Below the pieces are notes generated by a model. It was not told the origin of the DNA. It saw only the letters and a program-made list of their open reading frames with translations, and ran no database searches. The translations under genes and the position numbers were made by a program. DNA of 64,000 nucleotides from Owenweeksia hongkongensis DSM 17368 (lineage in GTDB: Bacteria; Bacteroidota; Bacteroidia; Flavobacteriales; Schleiferiaceae): NCBI RefSeq assembly GCF_000236705.1, contig NC_016599.1:1-64000 (forward strand). Direction: 5' to 3'. Below, in pieces: positions 1-17,940 of this stretch; within the stretch, counting starts at the first letter, position 1, and every line of letters begins with the position of its first letter.

Positions 1-30
1 TAGTTAGAAGTGTTTCGGATGTTTTGTTAT

Positions 31-1299
31 TTAAAAAAATGAAGCTATGGTCGATGACACCCTCACTTTCCCGCTTATCAATTGCGGTAATAAGGTGTCT
101 CGAAGTTGGGTGAGGGTTTCAATTCGATCTTTATTCATAAGTCTCTTCTTAAAAAGAGATGATTCTATCTTAAGTAACTGATCTATCAATGAAGAAGGAG
201 CAATTTCAACAGTTAATGCTGACAAGTCCTTTATGGTAATTTGTGATTGAGCTGAACCACTGTCCAAGTGCCTAAGCCCTTTAGGAGCTAACAGGTAATA
301 CAAGTATTTCCCGTAAACTACTGTATCAATCATAATTGACAAATTGGTTAGGTAACAATCCTTTTCTGCGATTTTGACATCACCAGTGCCTCCCACTCCT
401 CGTGCAACAACTATTAAAGTCCCTTCAGAGCAGTTCTTCTGTGGATATTTGTTGATGTATTTGTATCCTGAAAAAGTCATGTAATTTCCGGTTCCAAGCT
501 TTTCTTTCTTGGGCATGGTTCCATATTTCAATTGAGCAAAATCCCCAATATTCTTCACCTCCCATCCCTCAGGCACCCACTTCTCCAAAGTCTCATTGTA
601 TTCAAAACTGCTTGGGAAAAGCTTGGCGAGTTCGGGGTTTGCATAGATTAAAGGAGCACCGTTTTCGGTAGTGGCAGATTCCGCATCAAGTGCGGAATGA
701 CGGTCTAAAATGGCTTTGCGTTTCTCGGCTTTGGTTTTTAGTGCCTCGGGAATCTCTTTACCGGCTGCAAGGGCATTATCCACCACGGGGTCAAAGTCTA
801 CAAACCAGCTTTTGAAAAGTGCCTGGGCCATGGCCTCCAGCGTTTGGTTCATCTTGCGGTTGAGCTCTATTTTGTCATCCAGCGTGCCTAAAATGTGGGC
901 AATGGCTTTTTGTTCGGGGACGGGAGGTATTTGAGTTATTATTGGGTGAATATGATTTCTATTTAAAGTAGGTACAGCACTTCCACCTCTGTAATTCTTC
1001 AAATTTAAAGTGATGAGAAAGTAGTATATAAAGTATGCATCATTCCCTTTAAAATCATCAATATAAAGTGTTGTATTATGAGACCAACAATCTTGGTTTG
1101 TTAAGAAAGGATTTCCAACATTCCCACTCCTTCCGATAGATACACATGGTGCCTTAGTGGTAATCTCATTATGAAATCCAATAATCCCATTGGAACCAAC
1201 GACAGGAACACCTTCATCTACCATTTTAGTCTTTGGTAAGTCATGCCCCCTTCTGAAATTTACAATTTCACCTAAAGTAGTTTCGCGCCACTCACTCAT
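31..1299 (-). CDS. hsdS: Type I restriction-modification specificity subunit HsdS
   Basis: This is the DNA-recognition subunit of a type I restriction-modification enzyme. It sets the target sequence for the HsdM methyltransferase and the (unseen) HsdR nuclease. The 422 residues show the usual two target-recognition halves: the first begins with EWRETTLGEI, the second near residue 242 with WVPEGWEV. Each half is followed by a conserved helical spacer, PVPEQKAIAHILGTLDDKI in the first and SLIDQLLKIES in the second. The start overlaps the end of hsdM by 8 bases, the normal operon arrangement. Residues 200-208 (RHSALDAES) come from an in-frame palindromic repeat in the linker between the halves. 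The target sequence cannot be read from the protein. No hsdR lies in the window, but it could sit just left of base 1. Confidence 0.93.
   Translation of the reverse strand: MSEWRETTLGEIVNFRRGHDLPKTKMVDEGVPVVGSNGIIGFHNEITTKAPCVSIGRSGNVGNPFLTNQDCWSHNTTLYIDDFKGNDAYFIYYFLITLNLKNYRGGSAVPTLNRNHIHPIITQIPPVPEQKAIAHILGTLDDKIELNRKMNQTLEAMAQALFKSWFVDFDPVVDNALAAGKEIPEALKTKAEKRKAILDRHSALDAESATTENGAPLIYANPELAKLFPSSFEYNETLEKWVPEGWEVKNIGDFAQLKYGTMPKKEKLGTGNYMTFSGYKYINKYPQKNCSEGTLIVVARGVGGTGDVKIAEKDCYLTNLSIMIDTVVYGKYLYYLLAPKGLRHLDSGSAQSQITIKDLSALTVEIAPSSLIDQLLKIESSLFKKRLMNKDRIETLTQLRDTLLPQLISGKVRVSSTIASFF
678..698. repeat. Palindromic interspersed repeat inside hsdS
   Basis: ATTCCGCA and TGCGGAAT form a perfect 8-bp inverted repeat around a TCAAG loop, followed by GACG. 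It is read in frame as RHSALDAES inside the HsdS linker. From memory, very similar palindromes are scattered between genes in many Bacteroidota genomes, so this looks like a dispersed element that settled in a tolerant linker. The match to a named family is recall, not a search. Confidence 0.6.
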
Positions 1300-2863
1300 A
1301 CCCCAACAGCTTTAAGTTTTCAGCAATAGCCTTGTCCAGTTCGGCAGCTTCGGCCATTTGGCTTTTCAGGGTTGCGGTGAGGTCGGTCATTTTTTCCTCA
1401 AAGGGCACTCCATCGTCTTCCTCTTCGGCTACACCTACATAGCGGCCGGGGGTAAGTACGTAGTCGTTTTTTTGGATGTCTTGTAAAGTGGCAGATCGGC
1501 AATAACCCGCAATATCGTTGTAGTCCTCCCCCGCCTCCGGCACCCCCTCCAGAGGGGGACAATTACGCCAGTTATGGTAGGTAGAGGCGATGTGTTCAAT
1601 ATCATCTTTGGTGAGTTCCTTTTGAGTACGGTCTATCATGCTGCCCATATTTCGGGCATCAATAAAGAGGGTTTCACCAGTGCGCTTGCGGTAGCCGTGT
1701 GCTTCGTCTTCCTTCTTATTCTTGGTAATAAACCACAGGCAAACGGGTATTTGGGTTGTGTAAAACAACTGGCCGGGCAGTGCTATCATGCAATCTACCA
1801 TATCGTTTTCTATCAGTTGCTTGCGTATGTCGCCTTCACCGGAGGTATTAGTACTCATAGATCCATTGGCCAATACAAAACCCGCGGTACCGGTTTCGCT
1901 CAGCTTGCTCAGCATGTGTAGGATCCAGGCATAGTTTGCGTTTCCGGCCGGAGGAGTGGTGTAGCCCGCCCAACGGCTATCGTCTTCCAGTTCATTTTTT
2001 TCGCGCCACTGGCTTTGGTTAAAGGGCGGGTTGGCCATAATGTAATCGGCCTTCAGGTCGGGGTGCTGGTCTTTAAAAAAGGTGTTGGCCGGCACATCGC
2101 CCAGGTTGGCCGAAATACCACGAATAGCGAGGTTCATCTTGGCCAGCTTATAGGTTACCGCTGTGTATTCCTGCCCGTAAATGGAAATATCCTTGGTGTT
2201 TCCCTGGTGGCTTTTTACAAAGTCGATACTCTGCACAAACATTCCACCGGAGCCACAAGCGGGGTCGTAAATCTTCCCTTTGTAGGGTTCCAGCATTTCG
2301 GCAATGAGGTTTACAATACACTTTGGGGTGTAAAATTCACCACCACCTTTACCTTCAGCGGCAGCAAAGCGCCCCAGGAAGTATTCATAAATACGGCCTA
2401 CCACATCTTCTTCGGCATCGCCCGTAGTGTCAATATTGTTGATAGTGTCCAGCAGGGCAGCGAGTTTACTTGGGTCGAGGTTTAAGCGCGAGAAGTAATT
2501 GTCGGGCAAAGCTCCTTTCAGGGAGGTGTTATTTTTTTCAATGGTGTGAAGGGCGGTATCTACAATCAGCGCAATGTTGTCTTGCTTAGAATTTTCCATC
2601 ACAAAACTCCAGCGGCTTTCGGGCGCAAGGAAGAAAACGTTCTTCATGTTGTAAAACTCTTTCATCTCAAGGTATTTCTCCTTGCCTTCTGTTATGAGTT
2701 CTTGCCTGCGCTCTTCAAAGGTATCGCTGGCAAACTTTAGGAATATGAGTCCCAGTACAACGTGTTTGTACTCAGAGCTTTCAACGTTACCACGGAGTTT
2801 GTTGGCAGCATCCCATAGCTGCTCTTCCATAGTCTTGGTGTTTTTAGTTTTTGTTTTGGGCAT
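1292..2863 (-). CDS. hsdM: Type I restriction-modification DNA methyltransferase subunit HsdM
   Basis: This is an N6-adenine DNA methyltransferase that works with HsdS to protect host DNA. The 523 residues carry an N-terminal helical domain (about 10-150), the SAM-binding motif DPACGSGG (200-207) and the catalytic NPPF motif (278-281). The C-terminus has the family signature VLTPGRYVG. Residues about 435-447 (CPPLEGVPEAGED) are an in-frame repeat insertion in a loop between YHNWRN and DIAGYCRSATL, a segment that is contiguous or differently spaced in other HsdM proteins. hsdS follows with an 8-base overlap. All key motifs are intact, so the enzyme is probably active. Confidence 0.95.
   Translation of the reverse strand: MPKTKTKNTKTMEEQLWDAANKLRGNVESSEYKHVVLGLIFLKFASDTFEERRQELITEGKEKYLEMKEFYNMKNVFFLAPESRWSFVMENSKQDNIALIVDTALHTIEKNNTSLKGALPDNYFSRLNLDPSKLAALLDTINNIDTTGDAEEDVVGRIYEYFLGRFAAAEGKGGGEFYTPKCIVNLIAEMLEPYKGKIYDPACGSGGMFVQSIDFVKSHQGNTKDISIYGQEYTAVTYKLAKMNLAIRGISANLGDVPANTFFKDQHPDLKADYIMANPPFNQSQWREKNELEDDSRWAGYTTPPAGNANYAWILHMLSKLSETGTAGFVLANGSMSTNTSGEGDIRKQLIENDMVDCMIALPGQLFYTTQIPVCLWFITKNKKEDEAHGYRKRTGETLFIDARNMGSMIDRTQKELTKDDIEHIASTYHNWRNCPPLEGVPEAGEDYNDIAGYCRSATLQDIQKNDYVLTPGRYVGVAEEEDDGVPFEEKMTDLTATLKSQMAEAAELDKAIAENLKLLGYE
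1524..1559. repeat. C-rich palindromic repeat inside hsdM
   Basis: This stretch contains the inverted repeat CCCCCT-CCAG-AGGGGG (1543-1558) beside a C-rich run. On the coding strand it reads as CPPLEGVPEAGED. G/C-rich repeats of this type are familiar between genes in Bacteroidota. Here one sits in frame in a surface loop of HsdM. Family membership is from memory. Confidence 0.55.
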
Positions 2864-2918
2864 CGAGTGATTTTAAAGAGAGGTGAAGGTAAAGAAGGTA
2901 TTTGTTTTATTCGGAGAT

Positions 2919-2941
2919 AATGTAGGTTAAATACCTACATT
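2919..2941. promoter_or_regulatory. Perfect 9-bp inverted repeat between hsdM and the divergent cluster
   Basis: AATGTAGGT and ACCTACATT flank a TAAAT loop, with a short T run on the right. It lies 56 bases upstream of hsdM in the divergent control region, so it could be an operator. It could also be a weak terminator for rightward transcription. No protein can be assigned to it. Confidence 0.4.
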
Positions 2942-3016
2942 TTTTAGTGTCAGAACCTTGCGAGTAAGGGAGTTTGTGAGGTAAAACTTATAAAGTTAAA
3001 GCAATTGGATGATAGA

Positions 3017-3040
3017 AAAATCCCTGAAATCTGGGATTTT
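3017..3040. promoter_or_regulatory. Inverted repeat upstream of the unrecognised cluster
   Basis: AAAATCCC and GGGATTTT enclose an 8-base loop, and GATA/TATC on either side extends the pairing with a bulge. It ends 72 bases before the first gene of the 3112-7637 cluster. There is no T run after it, so an operator or a leader hairpin is more likely than a terminator. Confidence 0.35.
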
Positions 3041-3111
3041 ATCGCTTTTGAAATCATATTACCTTAGAGGTCAGTTAACTAAGGTCTGACTTTAATCAAA
3101 CCAACCAAACC

Positions 3112-3465
3112 ATGAGAAAAATTTATAGGTACAAAGACTTAACAAAGGTTGTACAAAAGGAAGAACATGTAACCCTTACTGTTGAATTCGTCACGGACGG
3201 GAATACAGGTGTAACCGCAGTGAACATTCCCGGGCCAAATGATCCAACTATTCTGAATGAAGGCTCTGCCAATATTGGGAAAGGTAAAGACCTGTATAGC
3301 GAGTTAACAGCCTGCGTGACAGATGTAGCTAATCCTATTCCAGAAGAAGATACAATCACTGTTCGCTACTTCATTAACGAGGATTTATTGTTAGAGCATA
3401 CTAATGCAAAATCTGTCTCTGATCAGCCGATGATTATTTTGATGATCAAATTTGTAGAGTCATGA
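3112..3465 (+). CDS. Hypothetical protein, first gene of the unrecognised cluster
   Basis: I do not recognise this 117-residue protein. It has no signal peptide and no TM segment. It alternates short beta-type stretches (VTLTVEFV, TGVTAVNIPG, DTITVRYFI, MIILMIKFVE) with charged turns, suggesting a small all-beta cytosolic protein. The last codons overlap the next gene by 4 bases (ATGA), so the two are probably translationally coupled. It faces hsdM divergently across a 248-base gap with two inverted repeats. The start codon ATG is preceded by an AC-rich leader rather than a Shine-Dalgarno motif, as is common in this phylum. Confidence 0.75.
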   Translation: MRKIYRYKDLTKVVQKEEHVTLTVEFVTDGNTGVTAVNIPGPNDPTILNEGSANIGKGKDLYSELTACVTDVANPIPEEDTITVRYFINEDLLLEHTNAKSVSDQPMIILMIKFVES

Positions 3466-4769
3466 AAAGAAATATCATAGTGCTTAGCTTTTTGGTGTTT
3501 CCTTTCTTACTATTTTCTCAGGAGAAGTTAAGTAAACTTAAGGCGCCAACCTCTCCAGCGGCAAGTGTTTTAGGACTTCAACCGTCCGTTGTACTTGCCC
3601 CAAAATCTTATGAAGCATTGGAAACGGCCCTCTTTACGAACTTTGTTGAGGAAGGTTCAGTGATAATTCCAAATGATTTATCTGTTGAATTCACACCTTA
3701 TTGGGCAAAGGATCATAGCCTAAGTTTGGATGAGTATCTTTTTCCCGAATCATTTGGGGATCAGCTTTGGCGTGGATCTTCATTTTCGATCGCTTCAAGT
3801 CAAAATTTCTTGCTTGAGGATAGTACCAAATCCAATGGACTGTCATTTGGATACCGAACCACATTTTATTTTGGAACAAAGAATTGGAAAGAGTCTGTAG
3901 TTGGAAAGGTTAAAGCATTGAATGCAAGTCAGGCGGTTGTCGCTGGTATTTTTTCGGAATTGATCCTTTTATATCCAAAGTATGCTGATAGAATTAAGCT
4001 TCTTAATGCAATTGAACCTATTATGCTTATTAAGATCAATGAAGTTGGAGCTTATGAGAACCCTTCAAAAGTGGTTGTTGAAATAGTTGCTGAAATGAAG
4101 AAGAGTGAGGTTGTTTATGATCAAAATAATCCAGATGACTTTGAAAAGGAGTTTTTGATAGTTCTTGATAAGCATTTAAAAAGTGAGGAAGTATTTGAGG
4201 CAGTTAAAGAGGATATTTTGAATAGGAAAGGGTGGTCAGTTGATTTTGCCTATGCAGGAGTGTTAAATTTTCCTTCAAATGATATGGGTTTTTCATATGT
4301 TCCAAAACAAGCTTTTTGGTTATCTCCGACATATGATTTTTCCAATAAGTGGAGTTTTTTGAAGTTAGTTGGTGTTCTAAGGTATGAGTGGTACAATCAA
4401 GGTTACTACAAAAGATACTTTCCTTCAAAGGACATTTATGAAAAAAACTTTGACTACGGATTTTCGATTAATACTGAATTTGAAAGATTCTCAATCAATA
4501 TCGAGTTTGTTGGAAGAAGTAGTAGTTCTGAAATATTGGCTGGAATGGATTCGGAGGGTAATCAACTTTACCGTATGGATCAGCAGTCAGATAATCAAAT
4601 CCTTGGAACATTTAACTATAACTTGACTGATCAATTGGTTTTGAGCTATTCTTTAGGGAACAAGTTTGTTGGTATAATCTACCCTGATGATACTTTAGTG
4701 TCTTTACTAACTCTGAATTTTGGGTTTGGTGCGCCAACTGAAAAAGATCTTGATTTGATTAAGAATTAG
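3462..4769 (+). CDS. Secreted protein, probably outer-membrane beta-barrel with helical insert
   Basis: This 435-residue protein is of unknown function. It begins with a clear Sec signal peptide (KR, then IIVLSFLVFPFLLFS, cleavage near FSQ). Residues about 25-60 are Pro/Ala/Leu-rich. The middle, about 140-250, looks helical and charged. The last 170 residues alternate aromatic and polar residues in strands typical of outer-membrane barrels (FNYNLTDQLVLSYSLG, LLTLNFGFGAP). It overlaps the preceding gene by 4 bases and is followed by a 90-base gap before the CHAT-like gene. I infer the outer-membrane component of the cluster. A periplasmic protein cannot be excluded. Confidence 0.75.
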   Translation: MKRNIIVLSFLVFPFLLFSQEKLSKLKAPTSPAASVLGLQPSVVLAPKSYEALETALFTNFVEEGSVIIPNDLSVEFTPYWAKDHSLSLDEYLFPESFGDQLWRGSSFSIASSQNFLLEDSTKSNGLSFGYRTTFYFGTKNWKESVVGKVKALNASQAVVAGIFSELILLYPKYADRIKLLNAIEPIMLIKINEVGAYENPSKVVVEIVAEMKKSEVVYDQNNPDDFEKEFLIVLDKHLKSEEVFEAVKEDILNRKGWSVDFAYAGVLNFPSNDMGFSYVPKQAFWLSPTYDFSNKWSFLKLVGVLRYEWYNQGYYKRYFPSKDIYEKNFDYGFSINTEFERFSINIEFVGRSSSSEILAGMDSEGNQLYRMDQQSDNQILGTFNYNLTDQLVLSYSLGNKFVGIIYPDDTLVSLLTLNFGFGAPTEKDLDLIKN

Positions 4770-4859
4770 TTAGGTAATCTGTAGGTAATTGATTTAAGCA
4801 TTTGGAAGCGAAAAGCATCTAAGAAACTCTCTCCTATTCTTGAATTTAATTTTATTGCT

Positions 4860-6599
4860 ATGAAAAGGATTTGTTTAGGGATTATTCTGACACTTGGAAT
4901 ATTTAATTTTTTGGAAGCACAGTCCTTTCAAAGAATGGCTATTGCCAAAGGGACATATAAACTTTCTGCTGGATCAAGTAGTAAGGTAACAGCTTATTGT
5001 TTGGATTTTACCAGAAAGGCTCCACGAGGAGGCATGCAGTATGGAAATATTCTTAGCGGTGGTGCACAGGCGGTAGTTAGAGTAACTTCGGATGCTGGGG
5101 TTGTAACAAGACTGACTTTAGATGACGCGGTCAAGCGTGGGTACATTGGAATAGAAGGAATGGAGGCTTTAGAAGGGCGAGGCAAAGAGGTGTTGGAAGA
5201 ATTAATATCCACTTCATCACAGTCAGGTAAGGAATCTATTGAGCTAAAGGAGCTTTTACAAAATTGGGATAATTTTTCAGAGGTGGAAAAAATGCAGTTA
5301 GAGCGAGAATTAACCCAAATTCTTCAACTTACAGAAGAAGGTAATCACTCTGCATTAAAATTTGTAAATAAAACTGACCTAGACATTGAAATAGACCTGA
5401 TAGACAACCTCCAATTAGGCTCTAGGTCTGAGGCAAATCCCTTGACCGGGGTTGATAGTTATAATTTATCGAGGGATCCTAATTTGCAGGATAAGATTCA
5501 GAAGGAAATAGTGTGGAGAAACCGAGAGTCACAAAATCTTAAGAGTCTAAAAGAGATTGGAGTTTACGATGGTAAAACAACAATTGCATCGAATGATTAT
5601 TCTTATATACATGGTATATATTCAGAGATTCAACAGAGTCATAATTTAACAGTCACATCATCTGAGGTAGGAGTATTTTCTGAGGCCATGGAGAAGTGGG
5701 TGAAATCTGAGAAAAGTAGATTAAGTAATACTCTTTCTTCCATTGGTTTTGATGGTGATTTTCAATCAGCGGTTAGAGCTTATCAAAAACATTGTGGCTA
5801 CAGTGAAACAGGAGCTTTTTCAAAATCTCTTAGAAGCAGGTTAGCTAAAGATTATAATAGGGGCATTTATGTAAGTCAAAACGGGAAAGTTTATAATACC
5901 AAAATACTTAAAAGAAGTGCAGGAGAAGAAAGAATGTTTGAACTTGGTGATAATGTTTACTTAAGCTTTTCCTCAAGACATTCAGTTGATAAAATTGAAA
6001 AGATATTATCGGAGAGAAATTATATACCGGATGAATTTGAAATAATTTCGCTGGTGCAGGATCAGGCAACAATAAATATTTTGGAAAAAAGATTTCCCCA
6101 TAACCATTTAACTTTTGGCACTTCTGAGATGGCTGATTTTCTTAAACAGTTAAAAAGCAGGAAACGTAAGTCCGTGATTGTTCTGGGACATGTAGAGAAT
6201 GGGACATTTTTTAGCAAAATGAGAGATGGTCGTGAATTTTCCATTAGCATAAGTGACTTGAAGCGGTTGGGAGATGAGTTTGACATTAATATTTTTCCTA
6301 TGGGGTGTAATACTGGAGATTTTGGTTCTGGCATCGGAAATGTTTTTAATTCGGTTGATGCACTGAACCGTCTAGAACCTGCCATTAATAACAATAGGAA
6401 TATGATGGGTTTTTTACGTGAATTGTCTGGTGAGGATATGAAGGTAATAATTGATGAAGTACCTTTTCAGGAAAGAGGATATTTAAGGGCAAAAGTTGAA
6501 AAAGTCATGATTCAGGATGGGGTGGTTGTTCTTGCTACAGCGGGGGTGGCAGGGCTTCTTATTTTTCAAGACGAGGCTTATTCAAACCATAAAGAGTAA
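4860..6599 (+). CDS. Exported protein with peptidoglycan-binding-like segment and CHAT/caspase-like domain
   Basis: The 579-residue product begins with a Sec signal peptide (MKRICLGIILTLGIFNFLEAQ). Residues about 296-330 (GFDGDFQSAVRAYQ, then TGAFSKSLRSRL) fit the PG_binding_1 helical repeat. Residues about 435-490 have the layout of a clan CD protease: a hydrophobic strand then GH (H444), a dozen polar residues, a short helix, a second strand, and GCNTG (C483). CHAT domains end in a very similar (S)ACNTG motif. A hydrophobic segment at about 555-569 precedes a short charged tail, suggesting a type I inner-membrane protein with the His/Cys domain in the periplasm. Two tightly spaced genes follow, 6 and 3 bases apart. 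The protease-like assignment is my inference from motifs. The fold needs structure prediction to confirm it. Confidence 0.7.
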   Translation: MKRICLGIILTLGIFNFLEAQSFQRMAIAKGTYKLSAGSSSKVTAYCLDFTRKAPRGGMQYGNILSGGAQAVVRVTSDAGVVTRLTLDDAVKRGYIGIEGMEALEGRGKEVLEELISTSSQSGKESIELKELLQNWDNFSEVEKMQLERELTQILQLTEEGNHSALKFVNKTDLDIEIDLIDNLQLGSRSEANPLTGVDSYNLSRDPNLQDKIQKEIVWRNRESQNLKSLKEIGVYDGKTTIASNDYSYIHGIYSEIQQSHNLTVTSSEVGVFSEAMEKWVKSEKSRLSNTLSSIGFDGDFQSAVRAYQKHCGYSETGAFSKSLRSRLAKDYNRGIYVSQNGKVYNTKILKRSAGEERMFELGDNVYLSFSSRHSVDKIEKILSERNYIPDEFEIISLVQDQATINILEKRFPHNHLTFGTSEMADFLKQLKSRKRKSVIVLGHVENGTFFSKMRDGREFSISISDLKRLGDEFDINIFPMGCNTGDFGSGIGNVFNSVDALNRLEPAINNNRNMMGFLRELSGEDMKVIIDEVPFQERGYLRAKVEKVMIQDGVVVLATAGVAGLLIFQDEAYSNHKE

Positions 6600-6605
6600 T
6601 AAGCA

Positions 6606-7247
6606 ATGGGAAATAATAATATTCAACTAAGCCAGAGAGCCCCTGTGAATGAAATTGTTGGGCTCTTGCAAACGCACAACGAATCAGAATTAGATTTATT
6701 AAGGCAAAGGTACCCTGGCTTTTTGGAGATTCTTAAGCCTGGCCTACCTATGGGGGATAATGAAAACCAATTAGACACAGAAAAAGAGTTAGAAATGAGA
6801 GCCACCGTTTGTGAGGCGGGCTTAAATTTAGTTTTTGAAAAGGCAGGAAACCTGCTTCCACTACTCAAAGGCAGACTAAAGAAATTAAATGGGGTTCAGT
6901 TTATTAGTCAAATTCTTGTTCTGTTAAGTGGGACTACCATCTTAGCATATTTTAAAGAAGATCATGAAAAAATTGTTTCCATGATTGTAGGTTTTTTTAC
7001 CTTGAGTGCAGGAATACTATCTCTTTATGTACAAAGAAAATCAGGAACTATTATTTCTGAAAGTGGTGGAATAACAAAAGTATACAATGAACTCACAGAC
7101 TATCAACTGAAAGCTGAGATATATTTAAATGAACTTAAAATACTTCGTGAAATTAATTGGTCTAAACCAAATGAGCAAGTCATGCAGATTATTACTGAAG
7201 CTAATTTGATTAGCTCTGAAATGAATCGTATAATAATAAAGTATTAA
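6606..7247 (+). CDS. Two-TM membrane protein, SLATT-like layout
   Basis: This 213-residue protein has no signal peptide. A polar N-terminal region (1-95) is followed by two adjacent membrane segments (about 97-115 and 123-143) and a charged helical tail. That layout resembles SLATT-type two-TM effectors found in nucleotide-sensing defence systems, but no sequence motif proves it. It starts 6 bases after the CHAT-like gene and ends 3 bases before a lipoprotein gene, so the three are one transcription unit. Both termini should face the cytosol. A plain structural membrane partner for the CHAT-like protein is the simplest alternative. Confidence 0.75.
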   Translation: MGNNNIQLSQRAPVNEIVGLLQTHNESELDLLRQRYPGFLEILKPGLPMGDNENQLDTEKELEMRATVCEAGLNLVFEKAGNLLPLLKGRLKKLNGVQFISQILVLLSGTTILAYFKEDHEKIVSMIVGFFTLSAGILSLYVQRKSGTIISESGGITKVYNELTDYQLKAEIYLNELKILREINWSKPNEQVMQIITEANLISSEMNRIIIKY

Positions 7248-7250
7248 GCT

Positions 7251-7637
7251 ATGAAACTTCTAGTTATTTCATTTTTCATACTACTTATGGCAAGTTGTAC
7301 TTCAAGAGAAGATGAGACGGTACAGATTTTCGAAGAAAGTGTACACAATTTAGACCTGGAAAAAGTTCAGAGTATGTGTACGGAGGATACACGCTTTTAT
7401 TTTAAAGTTGCAATAGAGCCGTTGTTTAAATTTTCAGGTAGAACTGAACTGAATTCAGTTAAAAAAATAGCATTATCACTGACTTGTACGGGTGAGGGAA
7501 GAAAGAGAAATTGCAGTTATCTGGACAGTGCTGGAGAGATTCATACATTTGAGTTATCACTTGTTGAAGACTTTGAGGAGTTAGGGAGTTCACGTTTGCT
7601 TATTGACATTGAAAGAAAGTATTTCTTCAAAGAATAG
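7251..7637 (+). CDS. Small lipoprotein of the unrecognised cluster
   Basis: The 128-residue product has a lipoprotein signal with lipobox LMASC, so Cys16 should be acylated and the protein anchored in an envelope membrane. The rest is a compact alpha/beta domain (helix FEESVHNLDLEKVQSM, then strands), like small NTF2/DUF4878-type lipoproteins, though I cannot place it in a family. Two further cysteines (in LTCTG and RNCSY) could form a disulfide. It is the last gene of the 4860-7637 unit and ends 16 bases from the convergent S24 repressor gene. Confidence 0.75.
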   Translation: MKLLVISFFILLMASCTSREDETVQIFEESVHNLDLEKVQSMCTEDTRFYFKVAIEPLFKFSGRTELNSVKKIALSLTCTGEGRKRNCSYLDSAGEIHTFELSLVEDFEELGSSRLLIDIERKYFFKE

Positions 7638-7653
7638 AATCGTTTATATTAAC

Positions 7654-8412
7654 TTATCTTGATCCATTATCAATAACTTTAAGCATATTAATAATTTTAT
7701 TTATCGTAGGTGTTTCTTGCTTCGGCTCATCAAGCGTAATGCTGCAAGCAAACCCCCACATTTCCACAATATCAGATAGAGCAATAGGATAAGGTGCATA
7801 CTCTTCATTGTCAGAGTAAAGGATTACTTGCTTTGAGTTTTCTTTATCCTGAAAAACCCGTTTGAATACGATTCCTTCATCCTGTGTAACCACAATGTAA
7901 GTGTGACCATCCTTGTAGTTTCGAATGTCTTCGAGGTATTTACCAACTACATAAGAGCCATTCTGGAGAGGTTGCATGGAATCACCACTGATAGGAAATG
8001 CCCTGAGCTTGTCTTTACCCAAAAACGGAATTCTAAGTGTGTCCAGTTGTTCGATAAACTCAGGATCGGCATAACCTGATAAGTAACCAGCAGTTGCTTT
8101 GTGGGTAACAATTTCAATGGCATTTTCGTTGTCTGGACTCACTTTGATCGGTAGTAATACCCGATTACCCTCAAGTTCGACCAGTTGGTCAAGATCCACC
8201 TTGGATAAATCCACGTTAATCAGAATATCCAGACTAAGCGAGTAAAGACTGGCAATACGCTTTAGAGCAGGTATTGGAGGTTCAGCTCTTCCTGTTTCAT
8301 ACTTAGAATACATTTCACGCGAAACGGCCAATTGATCGGCAACTTGAGCTTGCGTCCAGCTTTTGCGTGAACGTAATTCCTTGAGGTTGTTGGATAAAAT
8401 AGTACTGGTCAT
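7654..8412 (-). CDS. XRE-S24 self-cleaving repressor (LexA/CI type)
   Basis: This 252-residue regulator has an N-terminal helix-turn-helix (about 10-65, with the XRE signature KYETGRAEPP) and a C-terminal S24 peptidase domain. Ser145 in SGDSMQP and Lys184 in GIVFKRVF are the expected catalytic pair. Ala108-Gly109 in KATAGY fits the autocleavage site. It should act as a DNA-damage-responsive repressor that cuts itself when RecA filaments form. It is divergent from the Y-family polymerase and DnaE genes. Two GGTC-N7-GACC sites lie in the 68-base gap, one over its own -7 box and one over its start codon, predicting control of itself and probably of the polymerases. Confidence 0.92.
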   Translation of the reverse strand: MTSTILSNNLKELRSRKSWTQAQVADQLAVSREMYSKYETGRAEPPIPALKRIASLYSLSLDILINVDLSKVDLDQLVELEGNRVLLPIKVSPDNENAIEIVTHKATAGYLSGYADPEFIEQLDTLRIPFLGKDKLRAFPISGDSMQPLQNGSYVVGKYLEDIRNYKDGHTYIVVTQDEGIVFKRVFQDKENSKQVILYSDNEEYAPYPIALSDIVEMWGFACSITLDEPKQETPTINKIINMLKVIDNGSR

Positions 8413-8421
8413 AATACGACC
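8407..8421. promoter_or_regulatory. Second operator copy, GGTC-N7-GACC, over the repressor start codon
   Basis: GGTC (8407-8410) and GACC (8418-8421) have the same 7-base spacing as the stronger site at 8439-8457, with centres 34 bases apart. The repressor start codon (8412-8410) lies inside it. Two matching palindromes in one short divergent gap make a specific operator more likely than chance. Confidence 0.5.
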
Positions 8422-8438
8422 GTTTAAAGATTGCTTTA

Positions 8439-8457
8439 TTGGTCAAATGTAGACCAA
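8439..8457. promoter_or_regulatory. Main SOS-cassette operator TTGGTC-N7-GACCAA
   Basis: TTGGTC (8439-8444) and GACCAA (8452-8457) form a perfect 6-bp palindrome around 7 bases. The repressor's own -7 element sits inside it, so binding would block that promoter. It also rules out the in-frame TTG at 8439 as the natural start of the polymerase gene. Confidence 0.6.
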
Positions 8458-8474
8458 ATTTGCAAAACAATCAA
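8444..8474 (-). promoter_or_regulatory. Promoter of the S24 repressor gene
   Basis: Read leftward, a TTG (8474-8472), a 20-base spacer and TACATTTG (8451-8444) match the Bacteroidota TTG/TAnnTTTG promoter. The predicted start of transcription is about 8437, giving a leader of some 25 bases. The -7 box is embedded in the operator palindrome. Confidence 0.55.
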
Positions 8475-8480
8475 GACGAA

Positions 8481-9641
8481 ATGTTAGGCGATAGATCAAT
8501 TGTACATATGGATATGGACACCTTTTTTGTGTCCTGTGAACGACTTCAGGATAGTCGTCTAAATGCTGTTCCATTGATAATTGGCGGCCATTCTGCGCGT
8601 GGAGTAGTGAGTTCATGCTCTTATGAAACCAGATACTTTGGAGTTCGGTCAGGGATGCCAATGAAGCAAGCTTTGCGCTTGTGTCCCGATGCCAAAGTCA
8701 TAAAGGGAGACATGGAGTTGTATTCCAAATATTCCAATTTGGTAACAGAAATAGCGAATGAGCACGCGCCAATGTTGGAGAAGTCCAGTATTGATGAGTT
8801 TTATATCGACATATCCGGTATGGATCGATTTTTTGGATGTCTACAATGGACGACAGAACTTTCAGATAAAATAAAACGAGAAGCAGGACTACCAATCAGT
8901 TTTGGATTGTCTGTAAATAAGACCGTTGCCAAGATTGCAACGGGGGAAGGAAAGCCGTTGGGAAGGATAGAAGTACCAGCAACAGCTGTTAGGCCATTTA
9001 TGAACCCCTTATCCATAAAAAAGATTCCTATGCTGGGCAATGCTACATTTCAAATATTGGCACGTATTGGTATAAGGAAGGTGCATACATTGGCAGATAT
9101 GCCCGTTGAAGTCTTGCAACGGATATTGGGGAAAAATGGAATAAGCCTTTGGAAGAAGGCCAACGGTATAGATAATACACCCGTTGAACCTTACCATGAG
9201 CGAAAGTCTATTTCCACGGAAAGGACATTTAATCAAGATACTTTTGATGTGGATATGCTTAGGCGGCTACTGGTTTCAATGGTTGAGAATTTAGGCTTTG
9301 ACCTGAGAAAAGAAAACTGGCTGACTTCAACCATTACCTTAAAAATTAGGTACAGCAATTTTGATACACATACACGCCAAAAACGGGTGGCTTATACTTC
9401 GGATGATCAAAAAATATTGGAGGTAATATCTGAATTATTTGATAAACTCTACGAGCGGAGAATGCGATTGAGACTCATAGGAATAAGTTTTTCAGGGTTG
9501 GTAAGAGGTAGTTATCAAATAGACCTATTTGAGGATACTCCCCATAAAATAGCCCTGTATCAAGCAATGGACAGTATGCGTATGAGATATGGAAAAGAAG
9601 CTGTTACTCGAGCCGCTAACTACACACCAAAACCACGATAG
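8481..9641 (+). CDS. Y-family translesion DNA polymerase (DinB/UmuC/ImuB type)
   Basis: This is an error-prone polymerase for copying damaged DNA. From ATG 8481 it is 386 residues. The palm residues are present: D11 in HMDMDTFF, and D105/E106 in SSIDEFYID, so it should be catalytically active. SYETRYFGVRSGMP is the family finger motif. QIDLF at about 346-350 is a good sliding-clamp-binding motif. An in-frame TTG at 8439 would add 14 residues but falls in the operator, so I prefer the ATG. DnaE starts on the base after its stop codon. The S24 repressor is divergent. The set resembles the imuB-dnaE2 mutagenesis cassette, but no imuA is seen. Confidence 0.93.
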   Translation: MLGDRSIVHMDMDTFFVSCERLQDSRLNAVPLIIGGHSARGVVSSCSYETRYFGVRSGMPMKQALRLCPDAKVIKGDMELYSKYSNLVTEIANEHAPMLEKSSIDEFYIDISGMDRFFGCLQWTTELSDKIKREAGLPISFGLSVNKTVAKIATGEGKPLGRIEVPATAVRPFMNPLSIKKIPMLGNATFQILARIGIRKVHTLADMPVEVLQRILGKNGISLWKKANGIDNTPVEPYHERKSISTERTFNQDTFDVDMLRRLLVSMVENLGFDLRKENWLTSTITLKIRYSNFDTHTRQKRVAYTSDDQKILEVISELFDKLYERRMRLRLIGISFSGLVRGSYQIDLFEDTPHKIALYQAMDSMRMRYGKEAVTRAANYTPKPR

Positions 9642-12600
9642 ATGTTTCTGAACTGCCATTCATATTATTCATTGCGCTATGGTACAATGTCAGTGGAAGA
9701 ACTGGTTAGCAATGGTGTTGCAACGGGGGCAACGGCACTTGCCCTTACCGATATTAACGCAACAACTGGAGTATTTGATTTTATAAAAGCTTGCAATGGG
9801 GCCAGCATAAAACCAATAGTAGGTTTAGAGTTTTGGGAAGAAAGTTGCAAATACATAGGGTTAGCAAAAAACAGGGAAGGGTTCAAGGAGTTGAATGAAA
9901 TTCTAACTCAGCGAAACCTTAAAAAGGAACCGTTGCCTGACCGTCCAATGGCAGACAATGTTTTCTTAATTTATCCTTTTGGAAAGGAGCCAAAGAACCT
10001 ACAGGAAAATGAATTCATAGGAGTACGGCCGGATCAAGTAAATAAGCTTTTGCAGTATCCAAATATCAGCCGTTGTGTACCGTTGCAGCCGGTTACTATG
10101 GCAGCAACATCGGATTTCACCTTTCACCAAGTATTGAGGTCAATTGATAATAATACTCTGGTTTCTAAGGTGGATAAAACGACTTTAGCAGCTCCTCATG
10201 ATACCTTCTTTCCGTTTCAACGGTTGCAGCAACGGTTTTCGGTTTACCCAGAAGTCTTTAAAAATGCAGAAAGGATAATTGAAGATTGCAATTTTGAATT
10301 TGACTTCAGCACTCCAAAAAATAAGAAGTATTACACAGGCAGCAAGCACAGTGATAGACAATTACTGGAAAGTTTAGCGAAGGAAGGTATTGTAAGGAGA
10401 TATGGCAAGGGAAATCTCGAAGCTATGAAGAGGGTAGCGAAGGAAATTGATGTGATTGATAAACTTGACTTCGCGGGGTATTTTTTAATTACCTGGGATA
10501 TTATTAGATATAGTCAATCAAGAGGCTTTTTTCATGTGGGTAGGGGAAGTGGGGCAAACAGTGTGGTGAGTTATTGTTTGGGCATAACCAACATTTGCCC
10601 CATAGAGCTCAATCTTTACTTTGAGAGGTTTTTGAATTCCAGCCGCAAAACACCTCCTGACTTTGACATTGACTGGAGCTGGAAGGATCGTGATGATATT
10701 TTGGATTACATATTTAAACGATTTGATAGCCGTTGCACTGCTTTTACTGGTACCGTTGCTAAGTTTAAATATCGTTCTACCATTAGAGAAGTAGGTAAGG
10801 CATTGGGGCTACCAAAGGAAGAATTGGACATACTTTCAAAAGCGCGAGCAACGGCTATTGATCTTTCTGATCCAATAGTTAGTCAAGTAGTAGATATAGG
10901 GCAACGGCTGGAGGGGTTCCCGAATCAACGGAGCGTACATTCTTGTGGTGTAATTATTTCAGAGGAGCCATTGACGTATTATACAGCTTTAGACTTACCT
11001 CCAAAAGGTTTTCCAACTGTACAATTCGATATGTATATAGGTGAGGATATAGGCTTTGAAAAGTTTGATATACTCAGTCAGCGAGGTATTGGGCACATCA
11101 ATGAATGTGTAGAGATCCTAAAAGAGAATCGAGGCGTAGAAATAGATATACATGCCGTTGATAGCTTTAAAGACGACCCGTTGCTCAATGAGAAATTAGC
11201 AAAAGGCGAAACCTTAGGTTGTTTTTATATCGAATCGCCAGCCATGCGCGGTTTGCTTAGAAGGTTAAAATGTGACAACTATCCAGTACTTGTAGCAGCA
11301 AGCAGCATAATAAGGCCGGGGGTAGCCAAGTCCGGAATGATGCGGGAATATATTCAGCGCCATAATGATCCCGAGAACTTTGAATATTTTCATCCTGTTT
11401 TTGAAGAACAGTTGGCAGATACCTATGGTATAATGGTATATCAGGAAGATGTAATTAAGATAGCAGAAGGTTTTGCCAAACTGGATCCAACAGATGGTGA
11501 TATTCTAAGAAGAGCCATGAGCGGAAAAACCAGATCAATTAAAGAACTGGATGCTATTAAAGGGAAGTTTTTTGCTAATTGTAAAGAACTTGGCTACGAT
11601 GATAATCTCGCTCAGGAAGTTTATAGGCAGATAGAGAGTTTTGCGGGGTACTCCTTTTGTAAGGCACACTCGGCCAGCTATGCCGTTGAAAGCTACCAAA
11701 GCCTGTATCTAAAGACATATTACCCCATTGAGTTTATGGTAGCTGTAATTAACAATTTTGGCGGCTTTTACCGAACCGAAGTTTATGTACATGAAGCAAT
11801 TAGAGCAGGAGCAACGGTACATGCACCGTGCATAAATACCAGTGATTACAATACTAAGGTGGTCGGAAATGAAATTTACTTAGGCTTTATTCATGTCGAG
11901 GGCCTAAACGAGGAAACAATTAAAACAATACTACTGCAACGGCAGCAACAAGATCTGTTTCTTTCTTTGGATGATTTTATGAGTAGAGCGAATGTAGGTT
12001 TAGAACACTTACAAACACTTGTCTATACTGGTGCTTTCAGATTTACAGGATGCTCAAAGAGTGAATTGATTATTCAGGTGAGAATGAAGTTTGTTGCAAC
12101 CAAACCACAACCGTTGCAACAGTTATTTCAGTCTCCAACAAGGGATTTTACTTTACCAGAATTGGAGCGAACCCCAATTGAGGATGCATTTGATGAAGTT
12201 GAGATACTTGGATTTCCAATAAGTATTCAGCCATTTGATCTATTAAAAACCAATTTTCGTGGTGATGTCTTCGTTAAGGATTTACTAAAGTATCAAGGCC
12301 AAGTTGTGAGAATGCTGGGGTACTTAATATCTCAAAAGCCAGTACCAACGTCAAGAGGCTTAATGTACTTTGGTACTTGGATAGATCATCAAGGTGAATA
12401 TTTCGATACTACCCATTTCCCAGATAATCTTCAGAGGTATCCATTTAGTGGTGGTGGATGTTATCTTCTTAGAGGCAAAGTAGCCGTTGACTTTCACTTT
12501 CCCACCATTGAAATTCTGCAAATGGCCAAATTGCCATATAAACCAGATCCACGATATGGAGAGGAGGGGCAGTCTAAGGAAAGGAAATCTGTAAATAATG

Positions 12601-12677
12601 ACATTAACCCTTGGATACCTCAGAGAGCACCTTATCCATCGAAGGATGATCGAGATAGATCTTTCAATAATTCTTGA
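9642..12677 (+). CDS. DNA polymerase III alpha subunit homologue (DnaE2/ImuC-like)
   Basis: This C-family polymerase probably cooperates with the adjacent Y-family enzyme in damage-induced mutagenesis. At 1011 residues it is shorter than replicative DnaE (about 1,150 or more), in the range of DnaE2. The order is PHP domain (1 to about 220), palm with GRGSGANSVVSY and catalytic DFDID (340-344), fingers with GYSFCKAHSASYA, and an OB-like segment near 890-980. The PHP metal sites are degraded: the usual HLH reads NCH and TDH reads TDI, so proofreading by this domain is unlikely. It begins directly after the polymerase stop codon, so the two are cotranscribed. Confidence 0.93.
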   Translation: MFLNCHSYYSLRYGTMSVEELVSNGVATGATALALTDINATTGVFDFIKACNGASIKPIVGLEFWEESCKYIGLAKNREGFKELNEILTQRNLKKEPLPDRPMADNVFLIYPFGKEPKNLQENEFIGVRPDQVNKLLQYPNISRCVPLQPVTMAATSDFTFHQVLRSIDNNTLVSKVDKTTLAAPHDTFFPFQRLQQRFSVYPEVFKNAERIIEDCNFEFDFSTPKNKKYYTGSKHSDRQLLESLAKEGIVRRYGKGNLEAMKRVAKEIDVIDKLDFAGYFLITWDIIRYSQSRGFFHVGRGSGANSVVSYCLGITNICPIELNLYFERFLNSSRKTPPDFDIDWSWKDRDDILDYIFKRFDSRCTAFTGTVAKFKYRSTIREVGKALGLPKEELDILSKARATAIDLSDPIVSQVVDIGQRLEGFPNQRSVHSCGVIISEEPLTYYTALDLPPKGFPTVQFDMYIGEDIGFEKFDILSQRGIGHINECVEILKENRGVEIDIHAVDSFKDDPLLNEKLAKGETLGCFYIESPAMRGLLRRLKCDNYPVLVAASSIIRPGVAKSGMMREYIQRHNDPENFEYFHPVFEEQLADTYGIMVYQEDVIKIAEGFAKLDPTDGDILRRAMSGKTRSIKELDAIKGKFFANCKELGYDDNLAQEVYRQIESFAGYSFCKAHSASYAVESYQSLYLKTYYPIEFMVAVINNFGGFYRTEVYVHEAIRAGATVHAPCINTSDYNTKVVGNEIYLGFIHVEGLNEETIKTILLQRQQQDLFLSLDDFMSRANVGLEHLQTLVYTGAFRFTGCSKSELIIQVRMKFVATKPQPLQQLFQSPTRDFTLPELERTPIEDAFDEVEILGFPISIQPFDLLKTNFRGDVFVKDLLKYQGQVVRMLGYLISQKPVPTSRGLMYFGTWIDHQGEYFDTTHFPDNLQRYPFSGGGCYLLRGKVAVDFHFPTIEILQMAKLPYKPDPRYGEEGQSKERKSVNNDINPWIPQRAPYPSKDDRDRSFNNS

Positions 12678-12691
12678 AATCCTTGATTTGG

Positions 12692-12862
12692 TTATTTCAT
12701 ACCAAAATCTTCCTTTAGTTTATCAAACGTTGCCCCAAACAACCAAAGGCCCCCAAACCATCCGCTAAATGCGATAATAGATGTTTCGATTACATCTCTA
12801 TTAGCTACTATAACAACACAAAATATCTTTATTATAAGAAGTATGTTCCCTACGATGGTCAT
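12692..12862 (-). CDS. Small 56-residue two-TM protein (hypothetical)
   Basis: An ATG at 12862 opens a 56-codon frame ending in TAA. The product has two hydrophobic segments (GNILLIIKIFCVVIVAN and ETSIIAFSGWFGGLWLFGAT) and a charged tail, DKLKEDFGMK. The composition and topology look like a real small membrane protein rather than chance. It lies antisense-oriented between the DnaE and SRAP genes. No function can be assigned. Confidence 0.45.
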   Translation of the reverse strand: MTIVGNILLIIKIFCVVIVANRDVIETSIIAFSGWFGGLWLFGATFDKLKEDFGMK

Positions 12863-12933
12863 TTGCTCTGGTGTCTATCTTATAGCAAGATAGAATTTAT
12901 TACTAAATTCATAATGTAATAAAATTGAGAATT

Positions 12934-13719
12934 ATGTGTGTTTATACAACTCAGGAGGCAGACTTTACAAACAAGTATTCCAATTGGAAGGATTTGGTAA
13001 CTCGAAGTATTCAACCAGTCACAACATGGATAGAAAGTCCTGAATTCATGGAAGTAGATAGACCTCAATTCAAAGATCGGTCACCCGTTATTGGAATTGG
13101 AAACTGGGCGACTATTCAGTACAAAAAAGGTGATCAATACTGGTGGGATTGGGCACAATTTGCCCCAACTGTAAGTATGTGGCCTGGTGGCAAGAAGATG
13201 CCATATTACAATGCTAAAGTAGAAACTCTTGTTGGATATTTTGAGGAGGACAAACGAGGCGAATTTCCTATGAGGGTAAGAGATGACTTGCAACAGCGAA
13301 CCTGTGTTTTTTGGGTGAATTCATTTTTTGAAAGTAATGGGAATAAAACCAACCCCCGCTGGTTTAATATCCACAGAAAAGATGATAAGATGATACCCTT
13401 AGCTGCGTTTTATCACATTGAATCAGATCCAGAGGGAGGTACAGCTTTACCTTCCTTCACTATTATCACACGAGATCCATATCCTCTGGTTGCCGAAACC
13501 GGTCACCCTCGCTCCCCTGGAGTTCTACCCCATGAATACTTTATGGATTGGATGGATCCTGCACTTAATATCTATGATAAGTTTTCACTTATAGCTGAAA
13601 CAGCTGATGGAGAGTATGTGATTGATGAAGTTGAAAAGTCAAGTGTTACTAAAAGAACGGAACACGCGACCCAGCCGATTGAAGGTGGAAGAGCTGTGTT
13701 TGTTGGAGAGTTGGAGTAG
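12934..13719 (+). CDS. SRAP-family protein (HMCES/YedK-like abasic-site crosslinker)
   Basis: SRAP proteins protect abasic sites in single-stranded DNA by a covalent link through Cys2. I choose ATG 12934 because it puts Cys directly after Met (MCVYTT), which the chemistry requires. An upstream in-frame TTG at 12925 would destroy this. The other active-site residues align by pattern: N93 in PYYNAKVET, E133 in NSFFESN, and H191 in AETGHPRSPGVL. At 261 residues it is a little longer than YedK and divergent in sequence. Position beside the S24/Y-polymerase/DnaE cassette fits a shared role in the damage response, although it has its own start region. Confidence 0.85.
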   Translation: MCVYTTQEADFTNKYSNWKDLVTRSIQPVTTWIESPEFMEVDRPQFKDRSPVIGIGNWATIQYKKGDQYWWDWAQFAPTVSMWPGGKKMPYYNAKVETLVGYFEEDKRGEFPMRVRDDLQQRTCVFWVNSFFESNGNKTNPRWFNIHRKDDKMIPLAAFYHIESDPEGGTALPSFTIITRDPYPLVAETGHPRSPGVLPHEYFMDWMDPALNIYDKFSLIAETADGEYVIDEVEKSSVTKRTEHATQPIEGGRAVFVGELE

Positions 13720-13732
13720 CTTTAATTCTTAC

Positions 13733-15351: not shown

Positions 15352-15431
15352 GTTTTTTGAATTAGAGGATTATTAATTTTTCTATCTTAATTTTTGTTTC
15401 TATTTGATTTGTTAAAAATTCTAGGCCGGAA

Positions 15432-15659
15432 TTATAGGGACATATTTTGTTGTTCCACCAATATCTTAGTGAGCTCATTGACTCTTTCAATTCGAGAAAC
15501 CCGTTTCGGTTTCCGAATGATGCTAGTTGATGAGTCCTGCAGGTTCTGGTTATTAATAGTTGCAAAAATCTCGTTCTGTTGAATTGGGTCAAGCTGCTTT
15601 AGAAGCAGTTTGATAGCCTCAACAGTACCATGATTATTATTTACAACTAATGATTGCAT
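15432..15659 (-). CDS. Small hypothetical protein upstream of the replication genes
   Basis: The 75 residues start MQSLVVNNNHGTVEAIKLLL and are polar and helical throughout, with a basic centre (IIRKPKRVSRIERVNEL). There is no TM segment or recognised domain. It lies first in the leftward replication operon, 80 bases before the DnaD-like gene. A small DNA-binding or regulatory protein is plausible. A competing frame on the same strand (15362-15592) has a less coding-like composition. Confidence 0.5.
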   Translation of the reverse strand: MQSLVVNNNHGTVEAIKLLLKQLDPIQQNEIFATINNQNLQDSSTSIIRKPKRVSRIERVNELTKILVEQQNMSL

Positions 15660-15863
15660 TCAGTTAATTTGACCTTTGGGTTGGAGCTATTTGCTTTTTA
15701 GGTTTACATCAAAATTTTCACAGATCTCTTTGTTGTAGAGTAATATTCTATTGGTTGCTGTATAATATATTACTTAGATTTTTTAGTGAAATAGTTTGTT
15801 GAGTTGAATCAATTAATGTTGTCAGGTGTCATGATGTTAGTGTTTTGTAATTCATGTTTGTTA

Positions 15864-15893
15864 TTTGTTTGTTAATATTTATTTATACATTTG
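15864..15893 (+). promoter_or_regulatory. Promoter of the XRE repressor gene
   Basis: TTTG (15864-15867), an 18-base spacer and TACATTTG (15886-15893) match the Bacteroidota consensus. The transcript would start near 15900, immediately before the operator repeats. Confidence 0.55.
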
Positions 15894-15905
15894 TTTTGTC
15901 AAAGA

Positions 15906-15942: not shown

Positions 15943-15975
15943 ATTTTATGCCGAGAAAAGCTAAATCGAATATAT

Positions 15976-16383: not shown

Positions 16384-16398
16384 AGTGTAATACTATTT

Positions 16399-16490: not shown

Positions 16491-17786
16491 TTAGAACCTC
16501 AGAGTAAATTTGTTAGACCAGTCCTCGGCAAGTTCCATACTATAATCCCGTGTGTACTTTCTCAGGGCGTCAATTGTTCGATGGCGAGTGATGGTCATAA
16601 GTTTAAATTCAGCTTCATTCTTTGTCATCATTTTTCTAAGTTCTTGAAAAATGTTTTGGATGAAAGTGTGTCTTATTCCATACAGCGTATGATCTTGGGT
16701 GAAACTTCTATTATTTTTTTCTGTCATCTCCTCTTTCCACCTATTAAATCTTCTTGAGAAGTATCTTGTCTGAGCAATTCTTTTTGGCCCGGGTTTTTCA
16801 TCAAGTGTAAACAGGTAGTAGTGCTTAGGAGTGTTTTCGGTAAACATTTCAGAGAGGGTAATAAATAGTGGTTCTATGATGGGGATTGTCACAGCATCCA
16901 CTTTAGCGCTTTCACGTCTTAATTTTATCACACGATTTTGAAGGTCGATATCTTTTAGTTGCAGGTCAAGTATCTCTTTAGGCCTTAGAAAAGCGTACGC
17001 AATTAACTGTGTATACTTATATAGGTAAGGACTATGTTCTTTACTCCATTTACTGAATAGAATAATATCCTCAGAAGAGTAGGGCACATGCCGCCCTGTT
17101 TTTTCCTGAAGCTTTTTTATCTTGGTGCATGGATTGATTAGAATCAGTTCATGGGCGACCATTGTATTGAAAATAGATGATAGGTCACCCAAGTATCCGT
17201 TTCGTGTTTTGTTACTTGCTATTTGACCATTCAGTCCACGGCTTTCCTGCACGTATTTAAGATAAGCAAGTATGTGTTTTCGTGAGAGCTTGTCTGCGAT
17301 CAGGTGGTCAAGATTGTTATTGATCAAGAACTCCTTAAAGTTTTCCATACGCCAGCTCAGCATTTTGAAGTACTTCGGGGAGGCTTCGGATTTTTTTAAT
17401 TCCAAAGCTTGTCCTATTGCATCAATTATGTTTACAGAAACTTCCTCTGGTACTTTAGTTGGAAGTTTATCTTGAAGTTTGGTGATTGGGAACTTTTTAT
17501 TTGGAACCCAATCTAATTTAAGTAAGCGTTCTAAAACATCCCTTAGAATGGAAAGTTCCTCGTATCTCACCTTAGGATCTTGTGATCGATTAGGAGATAG
17601 GTGTCCAGGAATAGATGATTTACGAGCTTTTATAAGTCTTTGCTTGTCGTCATCCCAATATTTGTAATAGACATGCCATTGCTTGGATAGATCACCATTG
17701 TGATCAACAAGAACAGGCTTCAAGTAAGTTTTTCCATTTTCGGAAGTTCCCCACTTTGTCCCCACTTTTTTTAATCGTTGAGTCAA
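16491..17786 (-). CDS. Tyrosine recombinase (integrase) of the tRNA-Pro island
   Basis: This 431-residue site-specific recombinase probably integrates the island at tRNA-Pro. It has an arm-binding-like N-terminus, a SAM-like core-binding domain (about 115-215) and a catalytic domain with R268 (AFLRPKEI), a likely K295, R372 (GIRHTF), H402 (RHRTIDAL) and the nucleophile Y411 (KYTRDY). The first His of the usual HxxR box is Tyr369, a tolerated variation in the family. It starts 108 bases from the 3' end of tRNA-Pro and is transcribed away from it, the classic arrangement for tRNA-targeting elements. Confidence 0.93.
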   Translation of the reverse strand: MTQRLKKVGTKWGTSENGKTYLKPVLVDHNGDLSKQWHVYYKYWDDDKQRLIKARKSSIPGHLSPNRSQDPKVRYEELSILRDVLERLLKLDWVPNKKFPITKLQDKLPTKVPEEVSVNIIDAIGQALELKKSEASPKYFKMLSWRMENFKEFLINNNLDHLIADKLSRKHILAYLKYVQESRGLNGQIASNKTRNGYLGDLSSIFNTMVAHELILINPCTKIKKLQEKTGRHVPYSSEDIILFSKWSKEHSPYLYKYTQLIAYAFLRPKEILDLQLKDIDLQNRVIKLRRESAKVDAVTIPIIEPLFITLSEMFTENTPKHYYLFTLDEKPGPKRIAQTRYFSRRFNRWKEEMTEKNNRSFTQDHTLYGIRHTFIQNIFQELRKMMTKNEAEFKLMTITRHRTIDALRKYTRDYSMELAEDWSNKFTLRF

Positions 17787-17893: not shown

Positions 17894-17940
17894 TGGTCGG
17901 GGCGGCAGGATTCGAACCTGCGACCTCCTGCTCCCAAAGC
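17894..17940. other. Candidate island attachment site (3' half of tRNA-Pro)
   Basis: The integrase gene lies immediately 3' of tRNA-Pro and the tRNA remains intact, as happens when an element supplies a copy of the tRNA 3' end. No second copy of this segment was found further left in the window, so the other junction probably lies outside it. The exact core is unknown. Confidence 0.4.

Follow-up and report, generated by a model that had tools for sequence, protein, structure and literature searches.

Genomic context of the g3 gene

The window analyzed here comprises the first 64 kb of the single 4,000,057-base contig of Owenweeksia hongkongensis, whose chromosome is described in passages of PMC3570807 as circular and as having a G+C content of 40.2%. 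The left part of the window belongs to an island of about 27.5 kb at a tRNA-Pro gene, which spans the numbering origin and covers positions 1-17916 as well as chromosome positions 3,990,480-4,000,057. An exact 23-bp direct repeat is found in two copies, one within the 3′ end of tRNA-Pro (Table 1) and the other beginning at chromosome position 3,990,480; the distance between them, counted through the join of the contig ends, is 27,471 bp. By family matches, the island carries the type I restriction genes HsdR, HsdM and HsdS, and it also carries an OLD-like ATPase, a PD-(D/E)XK protein, a DUF2130 protein, the recombinase listed in Table 1 and a series of five + strand genes (g1-g5, 3112-7637). 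The G+C content of this g1-g5 cassette is 35.5-36.3%, against the 40.2% of the chromosome. Two further gene groups were recorded in the window. On the island, 7654-12677 encodes an HTH and Peptidase_S24 (LexA-like) protein, a Y-family polymerase (IMS) and a DnaE-type polymerase, which by their predicted functions make up an SOS mutagenesis set. At 40098-41606 and 42885-44417 we noticed by eye two neighboring exported arylsulfatase-like proteins; an exported protein resembling phosphatases separates them, and upstream lies one resembling sulfatase-modifying factors.

Table 1. Features of the g1-g5 cassette and of the island that carries it (window coordinates).
Feature	Coordinates	Strand	Remark
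g1, 117-aa protein, no signal peptide seen	3112..3465	+	upstream of g2 homologues elsewhere
g2, 435-aa exported protein	3462..4769	+	matches in other genomes; no Pfam family
g3, 579-aa exported protein under study	4860..6599	+	ORF
Signal peptide of g3, MKRICLGIILTLGIFNFLEA, cleavage probably before Q21	4860..4919	+	crude rule; mean hydropathy 2.77 over residues 4-15
PG_binding_1-like half-domain of g3, residues 297-322	5748..5825	+	Pfam E = 0.023, below cut-off
C-terminal part of g3 with the H/C motifs, residues 330-579	5847..6596	+	alternating strands and helices in low-confidence model, pLDDT 37.6
H444 codon (VIVLGHVENG), proposed catalytic His	6189..6191	+	reads CAT
C483 codon (IFPMGCNTG), proposed catalytic Cys	6306..6308	+	reads TGT
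C-terminal hydrophobic stretch of g3, residues 554-569, anchor doubtful	6519..6566	+	hydropathy 1.92; flanking charges oppose proposed topology
g4, 213-aa protein, two hydrophobic stretches (by eye)	6606..7247	+	weak SLATT-like signal
g5, 128-aa predicted lipoprotein	7251..7637	+	lipobox-like MASC
Tyrosine recombinase of the island, beside tRNA-Pro	16491..17786	-	Phage_integrase E = 3.4e-9
Right copy of 23-bp repeat, within tRNA-Pro 3′ end	17894..17916	.	exact direct repeat

The third gene of the run, g3, is an intact ORF from ATG to stop in the ORF list. The genes are tightly packed: g1 shares 4 bases with g2, and the following gaps are of 90 (g2-g3), 6 (g3-g4) and 3 bases (g4-g5). From its make-up, we would guess that g2 is an outer-membrane barrel. 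For g4, the match to NCBIfam SLATT_4 reached 13.3 bits (E = 0.055) where the cut-off is 55, and in Pfam CyanoTRADDas_TM was matched at E = 0.36. Matches to g4 in 12 other genomes (E 7e-4 to 0.048) were taken as chance similarity of hydrophobic sequence, and the locus of one of these genomes (L187) gave no blastp match to any of g1-g5. The MASC motif of g5 is what we take to be a lipobox-like motif.

Export signal and envelope features of g3

The N-terminus of g3 consists of MKR followed by uncharged hydrophobic residues at positions 4-15, and LEA-Q forms a likely cleavage site. By a crude signal-peptide rule and by this site, g3 carries a Sec-type signal peptide, and other proteins of the window were seen by eye to carry Sec signals similar to its MKRICLGIILTLGIFNFLEA-Q. 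The location outside the cytosol, put forward in the earlier note, is therefore well supported, and export of g3 to the envelope can be predicted with some assurance. Export by the T9SS is unlikely, as no C-terminal sorting domain was seen by eye.

The same note had proposed that the protein is held at the cell wall by a peptidoglycan-binding segment and a C-terminal transmembrane (TM) helix, and both of these proposals are weaker than that of export. PG_binding_1 (PF01471) matched g3 with 15.3 bits over positions 26-51 of the 57 in the model, against a Pfam cut-off of 23 bits, and a search of its own genome brought up three matches, with g3 second at 16.3 bits (E = 0.048); noise starts roughly at the level of the third, which has 14.8 bits. 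Thus, there is a match to a peptidoglycan-binding model at residues 297-322, but it covers about half of the model and stays below the cut-off, and no full PG_binding_1 domain scoring above 23 bits was found in g3. The C-terminal stretch, with a mean Kyte-Doolittle hydropathy of 1.92 across 19 residues, is hydrophobic enough for a TM helix, but the charges beside it are the wrong way round for the proposed anchor. The tail of g3 has a net charge of -2 and the N-terminal flank one of +2, whereas 13 of the 14 Bacteroidota TPR-CHAT proteins (PF12770) with a TM-like stretch at the end have tails of positive net charge; for this reason we doubt the anchor.

Relatives of g3 and comparison with the CHAT family

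Searches for relatives of g3 in overlapping sets of 60, 395, 149 and 149 genomes yielded none that we accepted, and scans of plasmids, phages, genome_contigs and viral_contigs, the last two of which detect close relatives only, yielded none either. Among PDB sequences, the best match had E = 0.4. When the two parts of the protein were searched separately, the C-terminal part gave only matches with E of at least 0.0116, in 15 other genomes, and the N-terminal part only matches with E of at least 0.11, in 12 other genomes and at a second place in its own genome. One genome match (L002, E = 0.004), to a 563-aa protein resembling by eye TolB-type repeats, aligned with residues 176-255 of g3 and was rejected as chance, the region of the His and Cys motifs being uncovered. 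Among the genomes searched, g3 is an orphan known from one genome only.

The two residues that the earlier note proposed as catalytic, H444 and C483, are both present, in VIVLGHVENG and IFPMGCNTG, and were picked from the 13 His and Cys residues that g3 holds in total. The protein has a His after a hydrophobic strand and, later, [SAG]C[NEDQ]TG. This loose pattern was matched by 32 of 40 CHAT proteins, by g3, and by none of 608 other proteins from a background of 800 kb from two genomes plus the window; as it was composed after g3 had been seen, it is no independent test. A stricter version matched 0/40 CHAT proteins, and hence was worthless as a test. The His and Cys are 39 residues apart in g3, compared with 45-52 in those 14 CHAT proteins for which a simple pattern could locate the two residues. 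On these motifs, a His/Cys dyad in g3 is plausible.

Family profiles did not detect a CHAT domain in g3. At E <= 10, the only Pfam families reported for the protein were PG_binding_1, LpxI_N and Plectin, all under their cut-offs, and no part of g3 had a match above cut-off in Pfam or NCBIfam. CHAT itself (PF12770, cut-off 24 bits) gave no match to g3 and, at E <= 10, none in the whole genome. A profile that we built from 40 Bacteroidota CHAT domains and ran with filters off scored the core of g3 from His to Cys at -4.9 bits and the whole domain at -2.4 bits; against the same background, this put g3 at rank 344 (core) and rank 177 (whole domain) of 610. Shuffled versions of g3 scored as high in 586 of 1000 cases (core) and 160 of 1000 (whole domain). 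By profile, the CHAT-like domain predicted in the earlier note is therefore not borne out: PF12770 has no match in g3, and the score with the CHAT profile is at the level of shuffled sequences.

Two AlphaFold models of the single sequence, made without relatives to look for the caspase-type alpha/beta sheet of clan CD, were of low confidence (pLDDT 37.6 and 42.5), and Foldseek found nothing at E <= 0.001 with either. With the first model, SAVED-CHAT chains (8tl0) appeared at ranks 20, 26, 28 and 50 (E 0.21-0.50), while unrelated folds (TsaB, ODP) ranked ahead of them, with E from 0.004; with the second, there was no CHAT or caspase entry among the 50 matches listed. We give the SAVED-CHAT matches almost no weight, since they stand behind unrelated folds and were not repeated by the second model. 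With the motif partly there, the profile signal absent and the models of low confidence, "CHAT-like" is to be read for g3 as a resemblance of motifs.

Exported CHAT and caspase-like proteins

According to the earlier note, a CHAT protein outside the cytosol would be unusual. Within the phylum Bacteroidota, PF12770 is present in 60 of the 118 genomes searched, and from roughly 105 places listed we sampled 40 (ranks 1-42 minus 30 and 39), with the upstream DNA included. The crude signal-peptide rule was passed by 30 of the 40, compared with 5 of 120 internal pieces; as a Met anywhere in the first 140 residues of the frame satisfies the rule, and as some internal pieces pass, a few of the 30 calls may be wrong. 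A terminal TM-like stretch was found in 14 of the 40 and in 2 of the 120 internal pieces. Seven of these 14 pass both rules (L101, L107, L114, L116, L119, L122 and L123), and the other seven fail the signal-peptide rule. For Bacteroidota the expectation was thus wrong: by these predictions, export of CHAT proteins is ordinary architecture there, whether or not the protein ends in an anchor.

The TPR-CHAT proteins of Bacteroidota resemble g3 in their signal peptides (by the crude rule), TM-like ends and H...[SAG]C[NEDQ]TG layout, and g3 differs from them in having neither a PF12770 match nor a signal with the CHAT profile. It is also shorter, with 579 residues against the 857-1293 of the 40 sampled open frames. 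Gingipains (C25) are exported caspase-fold peptidases, and they and clostripain (C11) have an H-then-C dyad outside the cytosol. The likeness of g3 to these enzymes lies in such a pair, also predicted outside the cytosol, but neither C25 nor C11 was listed by Pfam for g3.

Export is on record for other caspase-fold proteins as well. Clostripain (PMC11296011) is one such exported peptidase. Excerpts of a paper from 2012 (PMC3501461) count 11 metacaspases that putatively bear a domain for binding peptidoglycan and may be extracellular, and 46 with a single N-terminal helix, which may be a signal peptide, and they discuss metacaspase action at the cell surface. These prokaryotic metacaspases are like g3 in their proposed architecture, an H/C protease domain joined to a signal for export or to binding of the wall, but they match their own family, whereas g3 has no Peptidase_C14 match. 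A TAT-like signal is mentioned for cyanobacterial pseudo-orthocaspases in passages of PMC6426788. In passages of PMC10907252, a CHAT-bearing protein (DGR 2) is predicted to be cytoplasmic, which matches the expectation of the earlier note. For an exported CHAT protein itself, nothing closer was found in the open-licence literature. As CHAT proteins with predicted export signals are common in Bacteroidota, and as possibly extracellular metacaspases with a putative peptidoglycan-binding domain have already been reported, a wall-associated protease of this kind, as the earlier note had framed it, would be little new.

The g1-g2 pair and its neighbors in other genomes

The first two genes of the cassette (3112-4769) recur as a pair across Bacteroidota and in one Ignavibacteriales MAG. 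Matches to g2 were found in 13 of 296 genomes searched (12 without our own) and at 12 loci in genome_contigs, one of which (L194) repeats a locus from the genomes (L082). A g1 homologue lies directly upstream of g2, on the same strand, at all 12 genome_contigs loci and also at L081 and L082. At L083-L087, among them a second, distant g2 in the genome of g3 itself (L087), the upstream position is occupied by an ORF about as short as g1, for which blastp gave no credible match.

The genes next to the pair change from locus to locus. They were mostly judged by eye, with selected ones scanned against Pfam, and none at the loci examined resembled g3 by blastp. Several partners are lipid-acting: an LCAT-type hydrolase at L188 (6.8e-12), with similar ones by eye at L189 and L190, and a patatin at L193 (1.5e-8). 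Others act on peptidoglycan: an Amidase_2 protein at L195 (4.4e-10), with a similar one at L196, and, 775 bases downstream of the pair at L197, a PG_binding_1 protein (4.9e-12) that also matches endolysin families and carries a SAGC motif. Weak relatives of g2 adjoin a LysM-CHAP protein at L184 (blastp E 1e-5) and, at L185 (blastp E 8e-7), a TIR protein with a sub-threshold PhoD-like match, L186 being similar. No recognizable hydrolase was seen, mostly by eye, beside the pair at L081, L082/L194, L083, L084, L085, L087, L181, L182, L183, L191, L192 and L199; the L198 locus is incomplete. L086 has a DUF3754 protein and an exported protein of 211 aa, for which no Pfam family scored above its cut-off. 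The latter (L086:5554-6189), downstream of a g1-g2-like pair, contains RTNCSS followed further on by SNAHAVFV; judged by eye, this points to a papain-like enzyme with the Cys ahead of the His.

Possible functions of g3

Taken together, we propose, with a probability of about 0.4, that g3 is an exchangeable envelope hydrolase, and probably a divergent H/C cysteine peptidase. The cassette would be a small, horizontally moved unit on the tRNA-Pro island with type I restriction, made up of the conserved g1-g2 followed by g3-g4-g5, and g3 would fill its variable slot, where in several other Bacteroidota the pair adjoins unrelated peptidoglycan- or lipid-acting enzymes, or a TIR protein. We infer that g3 is the enzyme of the cassette by analogy with the hydrolases found in the corresponding place at some of the other g1-g2 loci. 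It may be held near the wall, would most likely use H444 and C483 in catalysis, and may work with the membrane protein g4; the cassette may serve in conflicts with phages or competing bacteria.

Of the readings considered, that of a divergent H/C cysteine peptidase is the likeliest; a protein without catalytic activity and a genuine CHAT domain are its main rivals. That g3 is an exported CHAT-type caspase-like protease, too diverged for profiles, is rather unlikely in our view: its GCNTG end resembles (S)ACNTG, its H-to-C layout has DG and a helix ahead of the Cys strand, and four SAVED-CHAT chains were matched by one poor model (E 0.21-0.50), but profiles give no signal, the better matches of that model are unrelated folds, the second model has no CHAT or caspase entry among its 50 listed matches, and the W[AGS]xF end found in 25 of the 40 CHAT frames is absent from g3. 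We regard it as unlikely to the same degree that g3 is a non-catalytic exported orphan, serving as a binding, immunity or structural partner of g2, with its H and C there by chance. The failure of our searches to find a homologue or profile match agrees with this, as does the choice of the pair from as many as 13 residues; the rarity of the H...C pattern in background proteins speaks against it, although the pattern was devised after seeing g3. Least probable among these is another wall enzyme with the His ahead of the Cys, for example a diverged domain resembling L,D-transpeptidases (YkuD) or sortases. PG_binding_1 is a frequent partner of YkuD, so that the PG_binding_1-like segment of g3 would fit such an enzyme, as would the endolysin-like partner at L197 with its PG_binding_1 and SAGC motif. 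However, Pfam lists neither family for g3, the SHGC motif is absent, and the poor models are alpha/beta, unlike the all-beta folds of YkuD and sortase.

A still bolder reading can be drawn, which we consider a long shot: g1-g2 would be the fixed core of an undescribed, mobile and modular envelope conflict system of Bacteroidota, whose enzyme can be swapped (a peptidoglycan amidase, LysM-CHAP, lipase or TIR protein), and the enzyme here would be a caspase-like protease of the periplasm that breaks down envelope proteins and is partnered by a membrane protein. The sequences of the g1-g2 pair offer a way to search for a family of envelope cassettes whose enzymes change, and so make the role of CHAT-like and other hydrolases outside the cytosol testable.
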